From: Psococerastis gibbosa
Taxonomy: Eukaryota; Arthropoda; Insecta; Psocodea; Psocidae
DNA: 64,000 nt
Reading direction: 5' to 3'
Assembly (NCBI GenBank): GCA_963971405.1
Contig: OZ020487.1
Coordinates: 46,783,039 to 46,847,038, forward strand
The notes beneath the pieces are model-generated. The model was not told the DNA's origin. It was given only the letters and a program-made list of their open reading frames with translations, and ran no database searches. The position numbers and the translations under genes were made by a program. Positions 13,300-58,626 of the stretch are shown one piece after another. Every line of letters begins with the position of its first letter. Within the stretch, counting starts at the first letter, position 1.

Positions 13300-13685
13300 G
13301 GTGCCCATTCCATTGACCGGCTAGGGCTATTTCCAAAAACAGTGACGTGGTAGCAGACATTCAAGACTTAGGTGTCGTTTCCACCAACCTCGCATTGCAG
13401 AATTGACGGAAATGTTTATTTTCCTCTGTGCCATAGTTAAAATTGATCAATGATCATACAGTAAAATCACAAACAAACAAACTAAAATTAAAAAATGGCG
13501 TCATGGGATATGTTAAGTACAAACATTTTAATAGATTTCTATAAAAAGAAAAATTCTAATTTCCGTCAATGTCATTTGCATTCTGCAATGCGCGAGATCG
13601 GTGCAAACGCAACGTAAGTCTTGAATGTCTGCTACCACGTCACTGTTTTTGGAAATAGCCCTAGCCGGTCAATGGAATGGGCGCC
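13300..13685. mobile_element. 386-bp element with about 120-bp inverted repeats
   Basis: The left arm GGTGCCCATTCCATTGACCG to about 13420 and the right arm (about 13560-13685) are reverse complements with few differences over 120 bases, including the long block CTAGGGCTATTTCCAAAAAC. The AT-rich loop of about 140 bases is unique. Such long arms make a strong hairpin. The flanks give ATA and TTA, hinting at a 3-bp target as in PIF/Harbinger, but this is not conclusive. Confidence 0.75.
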
Positions 13686-14275: not shown

Positions 14276-14579
14276 TTGATGCAACCTGAAAACTCCTGTA
14301 CCACGGGTAGTACCACCCCGACACGAATTTACTTATTACTGTGGGGACGCGGGCTATGGTAGTCTGCCTACAATTTATATTGATAATATGATAAATTTCC
14401 AATACCAGTGTACAGTTACTTTTTTGGAATAGTAAAACTACGTTGAGTTGAACGATACTTCTTCTTCCTCCACCCTCTTAGTGTCACATGCGCAGCCTGA
14501 AAGGGTCTTCCCAGACGCATTTCTTATACTCCACTGAACCGAACGTTGCAGAAGAATAAATCCCGGTCATCGACTTCAA

Positions 14580-15870: not shown

Positions 15871-16364
15871 ATTTAACACTAGTTACTAACTCCTGTTTAC
15901 TGTTACAAATGGTAAACATAGCGTATATTAAGTTTAAATTTTTGTAGTAATAACAAAAAAAAACCTACGACACAATTTTCCAAAAAGTTCCTTCATCATT
16001 CTCTTTTCATGAACTCTTACAAAAGCTATTTTCATCAACACCGCGACTTTAAAGGGGTATAAGCTAGAAGGTGTTGATGGGTTCTGGCGGGAACGAGCTT
16101 GAGAGATAAGAGGTAAGATATAAAGATAAAAGATAGAGGTGACAGGAGCAACACACCTGAGGCCCTTGCTGTTCATCTTTTATGTAACAAGCCTTGGGGG
16201 AAGGTTTATTACGCCAAATAAGAGTTTATGACGCCTAGCAGATATAGTGTAATGTACCGACTCTGCGGTTATTTCAATCAAATCTTTGCCCTTTTTTATA
16301 CACACGGAGAATAGAGAGGAATACTCACATTCAATTACTCAAAGTACCTACCCGTAAAATATAT

Positions 16365-17015
16365 TAAGAACTAGTCCGAGTTTACTCGAACATGCTTTCC
16401 AATTTATCAATTAGTAGTTACAGATAATAAGTTATTTCATAGTAAATAATTTAATAATAATAGCAGGTATTGGGGCGTGAATTTTATAGGATTTCTTCAA
16501 AAAATAATATTTTGCACTAAACTAAATACTTTTTTGGGGAAGCAACCTGTTCGGTATTGTTACTCTATTTAACACCTAAAACACACCTGAAGGTAGAAAT
16601 CATCGATAGAAAGGTTCCGCAGAAAATTATTTTTTAGCCATTTTTCATGAAATTTTAGTTATTTTTAATTTTTTACCCTTAGAAGCAAACTATGAAGGGG
16701 CAATTGACCCATTGCGTATTGTTAACATTAATATCGACTACAATATGTGTAAATGTAAAAGAAATCGTTGAAGCCATTTTTGAAAAATAATTTTTTTAGA
16801 CGTTTTTTTGGAGTTTTTTGAGAATAAAACTCCCCCAAATTGAGCTTGTCCAAAATAAAAATAATTGGTCTCGAGGTATGATTTTTGTTAACCTAAATGT
16901 CAAATTTCATCAAAATCGACCAAGTAGTTTGCCCGAAAATCGATGAACAGACAGAACTACAGACGTGTAAATCCGTTGAAATCTCGGAATCGAACATTTC
17001 GACCATCACAAAGCA
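16365..17015 (+). mobile_element. Copy of the 1-kb hAT-type element, internally deleted
   Basis: TAGTCCGAGTTTACTCGAACATGCTTTCC starts the copy. The poly-G and CRE-like (TGACGTCA) block is missing. Core sequence continues from about 16545 to CGACCATCACAAAGCAAG. Confidence 0.7.
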
Positions 17016-27010: not shown

Positions 27011-27199
27011 CTATTTCTTTTTGTTGAGAGTTCTTTGTTTTTCGGCAAACTCCACAACCTTTTCCTCAACGGCCAGGCCTTTCCTTCGACGCACAGCATC
27101 CATGTATCTTCTTGCACGAATTTCGGAGTCTGCCTTCTCGCCAAAGTGCAAGTATTCCTCCTCGGTTCTTGGCACCCAGAAAGGATCAACGTCCAATAC
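27011..27199 (-). CDS. EFL1: EFL1 (elongation factor-like GTPase 1), last coding exon
   Basis: This exon encodes 62 residues plus a TAG stop and matches the extreme C-terminus of EFL1/EFTUD1/RIA1, the cytoplasmic GTPase that with SBDS evicts eIF6 from pre-60S ribosomal subunits. The reading starts [20 protein letters not shown] and continues through the family's GEKADSE, an [13 protein letters not shown] stretch and a terminal [11 protein letters not shown], all close to the animal consensus as I know it. The exon begins right after a pyrimidine-containing acceptor ending TTGTTGCAG (minus strand), giving exactly 63 codons in phase 0. That phase fits the donor of the exon at 42283-42467. There is no frameshift or internal stop. 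An open frame runs on upstream to 27316, but that part is intron. I see no clear AATAAA just downstream, so the 3' UTR end is undetermined. Identity is near certain. Confidence 0.95.
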
Positions 27200-29095: not shown

Positions 29096-29222
29096 GATTC
29101 AGTAACTTCAAATTATAATAAAACATAGATTACATTGAAAATATCATATCTGGACTAATAGAAGCTTTAAGTTAGTAATAATCTACCGTATTTTATATAT
29201 CTAAAACGTCTTTATCTCACAC

Positions 29223-30236
29223 CAGGCCCGTACCCAGGATTTAATTTTGGAGGGGGCCAAGAACCAATTTTTGCTTTCCAATTTATACGTAGTATAAGGA
29301 AAGCTTTGTGATGGTCGAAATTTTCGATTCCGAGATTTCAACGGATTTACACGTTTTGAGGTCCCAGGAACCCAAAAAAGTGGTTTTTACAAAATGTCTG
29401 TCTGTCGGTCGGTCTGTCGGTCTGTCGGTCGGTCTGTCTGTTCGTCGATTTCCGGGCAAACTACTCGGTGGATTTGAGTGAAATTTGGCGTGTAGGCTCA
29501 CAAAAATCATACCTCGGGACCATTTTTTTCTTTAGGCTAACTCAATTTGGGGGGGTTTTATTTTCAAAAAACTAAAAAAAAACGTCTAAAAAAATTATTT
29601 CTCAAAAACGGCTCCAACGATTTCTTTTAAATTCCCGTAGATTGTAGTCGTTATTAATGTTGACAAAATGCGGGGGGTCGCTTGCCCCTTGATAGTTTGC
29701 TTCTGGGGGTAAAAAAATAAAAAAATAAAAATTTTAATGAAAAAATGACTAAAAAATGCGAAACCTTTCTATCGATGATTTCTACCTTCAAGCATGTTTT
29801 AGGTGTTAAATTGAGTAACGAAACCGGATAGGTTGCTTTCCCAAAAAAATATTTGGTTTTGCCCAAAAAATTATTTTTTGAAAAAAATGATAGAAAATTC
29901 GCGCTCAAATGCATTGCATGCCCTGCCATTATTGCTGTGTGGTAATTAATGTGTTTGTTTGACCTATCGAGAATTTACCTCACTTCCAGTGACGTCAGGT
30001 GGACAACCGCCCCCCCCCCCCCCCCCGAGATATCGGAAATTTAACCATAGGAAAAATATTTGCCATAAAATTACTAATTTTCTCTATCTAATAATTTTGA
30101 TAAATTGGAAAGCATGTTCGAGTGAACTCGGACCGGTTCTTTTTATAAATGATAGGTACATCCGTAGTGATTTTAGTAGTTTTAGCTATAACTGTTACAT
30201 TATTTATTATTTTTTATCCCCTTGGGTACGGGCCTG
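29223..30236. mobile_element. Complete non-autonomous hAT-type DNA transposon, 1,014 bp, perfect 8-bp TSD
   Basis: The left end CAGGCCCGTACCCAGG and right end CTTGGGTACGGGCCTG form a terminal inverted repeat whose first 14 bases (CAGGCCCGTACCCA) match perfectly. The element is flanked on both sides by the 8-mer TCTCACAC (29215-29222 and 30237-30244), the duplication size of hAT transposases. The interior has no transposase. It contains a GTCTGTCGGTCG microsatellite, (poly-G) tracts and a poly-C run near 30010-30026. Cores of the same element recur at 16375-17020, 33560-34415 and 56780-57620 and, cut by the window end, 63565-64000. It lies in the EFL1 intron. Confidence 0.9.
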
Positions 30237-30591
30237 TCTCACACACCTGTAAACCCTATTCGACCAATCTCGGAGGGGTTTGAAAGGGAGCATTAAAACT
30301 ACTGCTGATGTCCAGCAAAGGCATTATGCCCTACGTTAGACCGTTGGGGAGTAGGGATTATTATTTTTGTAACAATTCTATCATAGTCAAGTAACGCATA
30401 GGAAATGTATTGGAAAAATGTCCACCTACTTGGCCCTTTACAAAAAAATGTGCTGGTTACGGGCCTGGCTCCAATACTCTTACACTCAGCTTTTTGGAGT
30501 GAAACTTCATGCGGGGGGCTTTGAAGTTCTAATCCGTGACCTTTCAGTGTGACGCAACACCACTAAATTTTGTTATTTGGACTTATTTAGC

Positions 30592-33559: not shown

Positions 33560-34415
33560 AAAAGAACAGGTCCGAGTTTAACTCGAACATGCCTTACAAT
33601 TTATCAATTAGTAGATAGGGAAAATGAGTAATTTCATGGTAAATAATTTTCCTATGGTTAAATTTCGGATATCTCAGGGGGGGGGGGTTGACCACCTGAC
33701 GTCACTGGAGGTGAGGTAAATTCTAGATAGGTCAGACCAACACAATACCATTCATTTATAATGGCAGGGCACGCAATGCATTTGAGCGTGAATCATTTTT
33801 TCCCAAAAAATTATTTGTACAAAACCAAATAGTTTTTTGGGAAAGCAACCTGTCCGGTTTCGTTACTCAATTTAACACCTGAAACATGCCTGAAGGTAGA
33901 AATCACCGAAAGAAAGGTTTCACAGAAAAATTATTTTTTAGTTATTTTTCATTAAAATTTAGTTATTTTTATTTTTTTACCCCCAGAAGCAACCTATCAA
34001 GGGGCAAGCGACCCACCCCATTGTATTAACATTATCAACGACTACAATATATGTGAATTTAAAGAAATCGTTAGAGCCGTTTTTGAGAAATAATTTTTCT
34101 AGACGTTTTTTTTTAGAATAAATCCCCCCCCCCCAAATTGAGTTAGCCCAAATAAAAAAAAATTGTTCCGAGCTATGATTTTTGTGAACCTACATGCCAA
34201 ATTTCATCAAAACCGACCGAGTAGTTTGCCCGAAAATCGATGAACAGACAGACAGACAGAGCGACAGACAGAGCGACAGACAGACATTTCGTAAAAACCC
34301 CTATTTTGGTTCCTGGGACCTCAAAACGTGTAAATCCGTTCCGTTGAAATCTCGGAATCGAACATTTCGACCATCACAAAGCTTTCCTCATACTACGTAT
34401 AAATTGGAAAGCTAT
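33560..34415 (+). mobile_element. Copy of the 1-kb hAT-type element, termini lost
   Basis: From GGTCCGAGTTTAACTCGAACATG to the ACTACGTATAAATTGGAAAGC segment it matches the reverse complement of the 29223 element. It includes the poly-G run, the TGACCACCTGACGTCACTGGAGG block and a (GACA)n tract. The CAGGCCCGTACCC ends are absent. Confidence 0.75.
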
Positions 34416-42145: not shown

Positions 42146-42282
42146 ATTTAAAATACACTGATTCTGTTCTACATGGCTTGAGTGAAAGTCCGTCCCCATA
42201 ACAGTAGGTAATCAAGAGTTTAAACTCTGATGAATTACAACAGTAAAATTATTTAAAAAACGTTCGGATGTACTGTACATAC

Positions 42283-42467
42283 CTCCCAGTGGCTGAAAAC
42301 AAGTTGCGGACTAGCCAAGCCAGAAGTCTGCTTTCTCATTTCCGGTGCGAATGAAAAACTTTCGACGACCGGAAGAACAGCAGTCACGGAGAATGTCGCC
42401 GAGCCTTGCGTCATGTCGCCGTGCAGTACGCGCCCGTGGCGGCGACCCAAGACTGCGTACATTTTAC
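42283..42467 (-). CDS. EFL1: EFL1, penultimate coding exon (domain V, EF-G C-terminal-like)
   Basis: This exon of 185 nt carries 61 complete codons, from [18 protein letters not shown] to [14 protein letters not shown]. This is the C-terminal EF-G/EF-2 domain V equivalent of EFL1: the [16 protein letters not shown] stretch and the [14 protein letters not shown] block are hallmark segments. The acceptor on the minus strand is a pyrimidine-rich tract ending CCGCAG. The first two exon bases, GT, complete a split codon, which as GGT would restore the glycine expected before KMYAVLG. The donor after GAG is GTATGT, so the exon ends in phase 0, matching the start of the last exon. GC content is clearly higher than in the flanks, as expected for a constrained exon. 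The preceding exon, which should end in the first base of that glycine codon, was not found up to 64000. Confidence 0.95.
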
Positions 42468-42639
42468 CTGCGGAGAAAAAGTTAGTAATAAGTCTAGAAA
42501 CTGATTAGGAAACAAAGGGAGGGGAAAACCTTGTATGTGTAAACATCAAATATCCCATGTAAAACCAATCAAAAATATCAGGATAAACAGAAGACATGTT
42601 TCTGAACATTTTAATAAATAATATGATCAGGTATTTATT

Positions 42640-56764: not shown

Positions 56765-57622
56765 AAACTATAAATAAGAACCGGTCCGAGTTTACTCGAA
56801 CAAGCTTTCCAATTTATCAAAATTAGTAGATAGAGAAAATGAGTAATTTCATGGTAAATAATTTTCCTATGGATAAATTTCCGATATCTCGGGGGAGGGG
56901 GGGGGGGGGGTTGTCCACCTGACGTCACTGGAGGTGAGGTAAATTCTAGATAGGTCAGACCAACACATTACCACACAGCAATACTGGCAGGGCATGCAAT
57001 GCATTTCATTTTTTCCAAAAAACATTTTTTTTTACAAAACCAAATGCTTTTCTGGGAAAGCAACCTGACCGGTTTTGTTACTCAATTTAACACCTAAAAC
57101 ATGCCTGAAGGTAGAAATCATCGATAGAAAGGTTTCGCAGAAAAATTATTTTTTAATCATTTTCATTAAAATTTAGTTATTTTTATTTTTTTACCCCCAG
57201 AAACAACATATCAAGGGGCAAGCGACCCCCCGCATTTCGTTAACATTAATAACGACTACAATATATGTGAATTTAAAAGAAATCATTGGAGCCGTTTTTG
57301 AGAAATATTTTTTTAAACGTTTTTATGGAGTTTTTTGAGAATAAAACCCCCCCAAATTAAGTTAGCCCCAAATAAAAAAAATTATTCCGAGGTATGATTT
57401 TTATAAACCTACATGCAAAATTTCATCAAAATCGACCAAGTAGTTTGCCTGGAAATCGACGCACAGACATACAGACAGACAGACAGACAGAGCGACAGAC
57501 AGACATTTCGTAAAAACCACTTTTTGGGTTCCTGGGACCTCGAAACGTGTAAATCCGTTGAAATCTCGGAATCCAAAATTTCGACCATCACAAAGCTTTC
57601 CTTATACTACGTATAAATTGGA
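56765..57622 (+). mobile_element. Copy of the 1-kb hAT-type element, termini lost
   Basis: From AACCGGTCCGAGTTTACTCG to ACTACGTATAAATTGGAAAGC. It has poly-G at 56895-56912 and a (GACA)n tract at 57460-57510. The ORFs at 57409/57413 are shadows of it. Confidence 0.75.
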
Positions 57623-58626
57623 AAGCATTAAATAAATAAATTGAAAAGCAATAAATGAAAAAAAATTTTGTTAAAAAATCAAGTAATGGACAAGAAAGTA
57701 TGAAGTAAAATCGTCATCACATCCTACGGTCGTGGCATCACTACGATAGGGGGACTGTGGACTGCTACCCTATTTAGTGTAAAAAAATCCTTGATAACTT
57801 AATATTGTACGATATCTAGTGCATTCTTTTGTTATGGTACTAATCGTAGTCTTTTCGTAGATGAGAGCATAGGCAAATCAAGAGTCAATTATAGCTAATG
57901 TGTTCAGTGGCGGACATACAATAGCTTTTCGTGCGGACAGATAACATTCTGTGAACATTTGGAATAAATTATAATTATAAATAAACATAAATGTTGCAGT
58001 TACGAATTATGTACGACAAACAATTACGGTTTAAATTGCATAGAAATAAACACACCATTGGATGTTTTATATATTTTTTTTAAATAGGCACGAAATAGTG
58101 GTTTTACTTATTTTAACAGCAGTAAAGTTAGATTTTACAAAGCTTACTGAGGAGGGAGTACGTCAAACATGGCTTGGGGGTGCCCACATGAGGTAATTTT
58201 TTTAAAAATAGCTACTAGTAGGATTTTACGCGTTTTAACGGCAGTAAAGTTTAGAATTTGCAGAGGAATTTTCCATTTTTTTGGGAGGGTGGTTACAGAC
58301 TTACAGCCCAATAACTACGGGCCATGCCAGGACCTCAAAACGTGTAATTGCGTTGAATTCTGGAATTTTGAGATATTTTACATGTTATATAGCAGAATTT
58401 TTGCAATTCAAAAACGTCAGGATTAAAACTGGTTACAAGACTGCAAGTTGCTTACTTTCATTATACCTACTCCCAGTGAAAAATGTTTTGTTTTTTCATT
58501 GGCCCCCCAGATAGAAGTCATGCCCCCCCCCCCCGACTTAAAATTTCTGGCGACGCCACTGTTCACCTGAAAATAGGGAGGGAAAAATTAGTCCAACACG
58601 CTAACAATATGCGTACATCAACACGC

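Follow-up and report, generated by a model that had tools for sequence, protein, structure and literature searches.

Terminal inverted repeats starting CAGG are typical of hAT transposons, and non-coding repeats with hitchhiking (GTCY)n microsatellites have reportedly been described from Lepidoptera as MITE-like elements (a 2011 report by Coates et al. is said to use the name MINE-2). HINE/DINE-1 (INE-1) elements are non-autonomous Helentrons, for which Thomas et al. (2014, PMC4067079) give subterminal inverted repeats (subTIRs) of 12–15 bp, the 5′ one near the end of the element, a 3′ palindrome and T-rich insertion sites, together with a subTIR-to-3′-end distance of 38–60 for mite families. 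The locus described here, in a 64,000-nucleotide stretch of a Psococerastis gibbosa contig (OZ020487.1; hereafter the window), very probably brings both kinds together through two insertions that were independent of each other: first that of a hAT-type MITE about 140 bp long and later, within the MITE, that of an 871-bp HINE/DINE-1-like element (hereafter HINE). Two transposon families that had been read as one are thereby separated, and a repeat library entry built on the whole interval would put the hAT label on HINE copies by the thousand. The nested pair is real but ordinary, consisting of new members of known transposon kinds. Among the literature matches listed there was no account of either family; in literature text the 10-mer CAGGCCCGTA was found only under titles unrelated to transposons, and the other two end strings were absent.

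The interval is bordered on both sides by the 8-bp duplication TCTCACAC (29215–29222 and 30237–30244, a perfect match), inside which CAGGCCCGTACCCA occurs exactly at 29223–29236 (+) and 30223–30236 (−) as 14-bp inverted terminal repeats, confirming at both ends the terminal repeats and exact duplication that the original prediction had reported. When up to three mismatches were allowed the window held 12 matches to CAGGCCCGTACCCA against a shuffle mean of 2.10, with none of 100 shuffles reaching 12. The placement in an EFL1 intron, also claimed beforehand, is supported because two minus-strand exons bracket the element: the translation of the frame at 27011–27325 matches the C-terminal 72 residues of 5anb_K (E 7e-27), a chain of a solved structure titled “elongation factor Tu GTP-binding domain-containing protein 1”, which we take to be an older name of EFL1, and an exon with an EFG_C domain (E 8.9e-9) lies at 42274–42471.

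That the interior is a free-standing repeat follows from matches that cover it alone, copies that lack the shell and flanks that are unrelated. The search of the 409 Mb genome with the whole interval (query of 1,030 bases), proposed in the original prediction, went against a single element: with the best 40 of 5,762 candidates scored as full-length matches, 39 of the 40 (all but the window's own) covered only the query from positions 45–57 to 927–941, at 97–98% identity, and four further matches were short pieces. Seven interior copies (L002–L008) were retrieved together with 1.5 kb of sequence to either side; none gave a BLAST match to the shell, and their flanks were unrelated by eye. Genome matches, an alignment with sister MITEs and the junctions place the 871-bp HINE at 29271–30141 (+); both ends sit in T-runs, which leaves an uncertainty of about 3 bases in their position. 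With up to three mismatches allowed, its 5′ 33-mer was found at 14,467 genome places and its 3′ 42-mer at 13,464, against 0 for each pattern reversed as a control. The seven fetched copies, which were picked as best matches, are 98.6–99.3% identical among themselves and sit on different chromosomes, and the nested HINE shares 98.0–98.5% identity with them (gaps ignored). Two further full-length copies lie in the window on the minus strand, at 33562–34412 (84.9% identical by BLAST) and 56776–57627 (87.1% by BLAST), sharing 89.9% and 91.1%, respectively, with the nested copy when gaps are ignored. BLAST also recovered a broken minus-strand copy, in pieces, at 16360–17014, and short fragments occur besides. 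The “four more copies, mostly missing ends” noted earlier are therefore copies of the inner HINE, and those at 56776–57627 and 33562–34412 are complete by the HINE's own ends.

The outer shell is, with good support, a non-autonomous hAT-type MITE of about 140 bp. Repeats and the sister alignment delimit a left arm at 29223–29270 (+), starting with the terminal repeat, and a right arm at 30142–30236 (+), with the terminal repeat at its end. Uninterrupted copies were found with the joined flanks of the window's interior as query (the best 40 of 714 candidates scored), and the left end, as a 28-mer at ≤3 mismatches, matched 594 genome places against 0 for the reversed control pattern; the great abundance first ascribed to the whole family holds mainly for the HINE, with more than 13,000 ends, but far less for the MITE. 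Copies were counted over 60 loci (L009–L068) from the joined-flank and left-end searches, several of which repeat one place, and end pairs were accepted only at 100–260 or 1000–1020 bp apart. Nine of the 60 loci were without such a pair; in one of the nine, L067, the two ends are separated by 375 bp and 4 of the 8 flanking bases do not agree. The count gave 46 distinct both-ended copies including the window's, of which 45 measure 145–201 bp and the window's alone 1,014 bp, so the size first given to the element is not that of the MITE. The 8-bp duplication is perfect in 27 copies, while its two halves differ at a single base in 13 others and at two or more bases in six. This tabulation of ends and duplications, likewise proposed beforehand, upheld the non-autonomous hAT-type assignment, as dozens of places show CAGGCCCGTACCCA-type ends with a duplication of 8 bp, and in 40 of the 46 copies that duplication has no more than one mismatch. 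The shell resembles hAT-superfamily MITEs in its CAGG-starting terminal repeats, 8-bp target duplication, lack of coding sequence and, in 45 of 46 copies, length. A perfect duplication does not in itself mark an insertion as young, since 27 of the 46 copies carry one, and the fairly recent insertion first read from it does not follow.

Aligned with 12 sisters, the window's MITE is broken within a T-run, with AACCAATTTTT before the break and TTTTTATAAATG after it, and the T-run of the sisters is unbroken, so that the uninterrupted MITE serves as an empty-site control for the HINE insertion. We infer the following order of events. A hAT-type MITE with CAGGCCCGTACCCA ends entered the EFL1 intron and duplicated TCTCACAC, a step shown by the ends, the duplication and the sisters, presumably by cut-and-paste movement through a hAT transposase. 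Later the 871-bp non-autonomous HINE of DINE-1 type entered the T-run inside the MITE, its later arrival being indicated by its position within the MITE, and probably did so via a single-stranded rolling-circle intermediate that an autonomous Helentron or Helitron would have provided, a mechanism suggested by its anatomy and by the published account of the family (PMC4067079). The six of 46 MITE copies with two or more duplication mismatches count against the reading of two insertions, as do the shuffle-level folding of the 3′ palindrome and the failure to find, among the enzyme genes compared, an autonomous partner for either element. The original view, in which all of this is one non-autonomous hAT family of 1,014 bp and the remaining copies were stripped of their ends, could appeal to the intact ends and duplication, but interior copies stop at constant points of their own within unrelated flanks, shells exist without the interior, and interior ends are more than 20 times commoner than the shell's left end (a rough ratio, as the pattern lengths differ); shell-less interiors and interior-less shells together rule it out, leaving it a negligible probability. 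Also improbable is a course in which the HINE had already joined the MITE at another site and a hAT transposase afterwards carried the 1,014-bp composite to the EFL1 site as one unit. Such a jump would account for terminal repeats and a duplication that are both intact, and cut-and-paste need leave no second copy, but no second composite was present among the 46 both-ended shells or the best 40 interior matches scored, and it needs one step more than insertion in place. Entry of the HINE at the EFL1 site, rather than arrival with the MITE, is the simpler course.

The interior has the layout of a HINE. A 15-nt 5′ subTIR, TGCTTTCCAATTTAT (29272–29286, +), is repeated with 100% identity in inverted orientation as the 3′ subTIR ATAAATTGGAAAGCA (30100–30114, −), and the 5′ copy pairs with the GGAAAGC just after it in a hairpin (GCTTTCC...GGAAAGC; 29273–29304, +) whose DNA fold gave z −6.88, with 0 of 200 shuffles as strong, in a stretch picked to contain the hairpin. 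A GTCT/GTCG microsatellite tract (29396–29447, +) and a 17-base C run (30010–30026, +) were recognised from the sequence and copy comparison, and TGACGTCA lies at 29990–29997. The 3′ palindrome GTTCGAG-TGAA-CTCGGAC (30116–30133, +) falls inside the 42-mer found at 13,464 places; it folded no more strongly than shuffles (z −0.10, 0.13 and −0.47). The GTCT-type tract and TGACGTCA were both present in all 10 HINE copies compared and in none of seven tested MITE bodies. The internal blocks first listed, namely a GTCT/GGTC tract, TGACGTCA and runs of C and of G, do exist, but they do not belong to the element with CAGGCCCGTACCCA ends: because the interior is a separate repeat, these features, like the copies said to miss their ends, are the HINE's and not the hAT element's. 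By stop-to-stop frame length the HINE is apparently without coding capacity, the longest frames that overlap it being of 106 and 100 aa. Junctions were read in 30 copies, of which 28 were correctly anchored and two (L121 and win57) mis-anchored and left out; in the 28, the two bases beyond the HINE core were almost always T on either side (27 copies at −1 and 28 at −2; 28 copies at +1 and 27 at +2), the assignment of these Ts to element or target being ambiguous. The junctions are T-rich, in keeping with the two or more Ts expected on both sides of a HINE, and show no constant longer duplication.

Measured against the published description of HINE/DINE-1 elements (PMC4067079), the inner element shares the subTIR length of 12–15 bp, the position near the 5′ end, a 5′ inverted repeat nested in the subTIR, the 3′ palindrome, the microsatellite, the T-rich insertion sites and a very high copy number. 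It differs in that its 3′ subTIR lies about 27 bp from the 3′ end at the inner edge and about 41 at the outer edge, and its sequence has here been matched to no named family. A GTCY-type microsatellite in a non-coding repeat is also a point of likeness to the lepidopteran (GTCY)n repeats reported by Coates et al. Such GTCY-bearing repeats are said to have been described once as MITEs, which lends something to the reading of the inner repeat as a MITE with long terminal repeats mobilised by a DDE transposase, as do its perfect 15-bp inverted repeats. We consider that reading unlikely, as the inverted repeat stands at the 5′ end but on the 3′ side sits some 27 bp in from the end and is followed by a palindrome, the junctions are T-rich with no constant longer duplication (a TT duplication in T-runs being possible), and the asymmetric layout is that of a HINE in the published account (PMC4067079). 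Keeping the HINE assignment, we tentatively suggest, at a little short of even chances, that the inner repeat represents a HINE family not described before and exceptionally successful, with more than 13,000 ends in 409 Mb. The 98.6–99.3% identity among copies on different chromosomes would then point to a recent rolling-circle burst, driven by an autonomous partner that is now rare in this assembly or gone from it.

The genome holds enzymes of both kinds, as shown by matches to the hAT dimerisation domain and to Helitron_like_N. The Helitron_like_N search returned 20 matches from 26 candidates, 19 of them above the cut-off. A 1671-aa frame on C14 combines Helitron_like_N (Rep) with a PIF1 helicase, and two further copies of this element match it over 3,537 bp at 99.97% and 99.94% identity; three Rep-element copies were noted in all, on C1, C14 and C15 (L073, L074, L075), and in the C14 copy the frame runs on into PIF1. 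Pfam gave no endonuclease domain in the two parts of the 1671-aa frame scanned, the first 81 residues lying outside them. Upstream of the frame on C14 there is a piece 70% identical to HINE positions 1–391. C14 and C1 agree at every base for 1,113 bp outside this piece and for 1,701 bp on the downstream side of the frame, the identity running past every stretch compared, and C15 looks identical in the 90 bases outside the piece, the only stretch viewed there. Because the C14/C1 identity continues for 1,113 bp beyond it, the HINE-like piece is internal to the Rep/PIF1 element, and this Helitron is not shown to be the HINE's partner. DUF6570 and Helitron_like_N domains also occur together in another long open frame (L080; C15:2836273–2839554, −), which is a different Rep lineage from the 1671-aa frame; its other genome matches are partial, several with stop codons. 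A HINE 5′ end lies about 0.4 kb upstream of this frame and is directed away from it (97 bases viewed), a neighbourhood accounted for by the sheer abundance of HINEs, so that it does not mark L080 as the partner. Among the Rep elements compared (C14/C1/C15 and L080), no autonomous Rep/helicase element with both HINE ends was found.

For the hAT dimerisation domain, the best 150 of 913 genome candidates were scored, and 61 of these share one E-value; an open frame of 836 aa contains 59 of the 61. The 61 equal matches (G000; e.g. C12:41927925–41928143, +) are spread over ten or more contigs. The family with the 836-aa frame looks very recent or active. Further hAT families have frames of 735 aa and 826 aa. 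The search for a full-length hAT transposase with the MITE's ends, also put forward in the original prediction, came back empty: comparing the 150 of 913 domain candidates with 100 of the 594 end matches gave none within 11 kb, the nearest pair being 11.6 kb apart. Similarly, no transposase was recognised by eye in frames of more than 110 aa at eight MITE loci that at first lacked a second end, and, for one copy taken from each of three transposase families, the 3′ flank held no match to the MITE end, though one of these flanks holds a related CCGGGCCTG stretch.

Two other ends of hAT type were observed. About 200 bp to the right of the MITE, at 30454–30467 (−), the end CAGGCCCGTAACCA is the sole other window match to the MITE end at ≤1 mismatch. 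Forty bases there are 77.5% identical to the MITE's left end, and no partner end with the same 8-bp flank was found for it in the window (pattern at ≤2 mismatches, CAGG required); it apparently belongs to a different element. On C1 (L091; C1:421600–422400), on the downstream side of one copy of the hAT frame of 826 aa, CGGGCCGGGCCTG follows a G run and is possibly the 3′ end of that 826-aa element, related to the MITE end and distinct from it.
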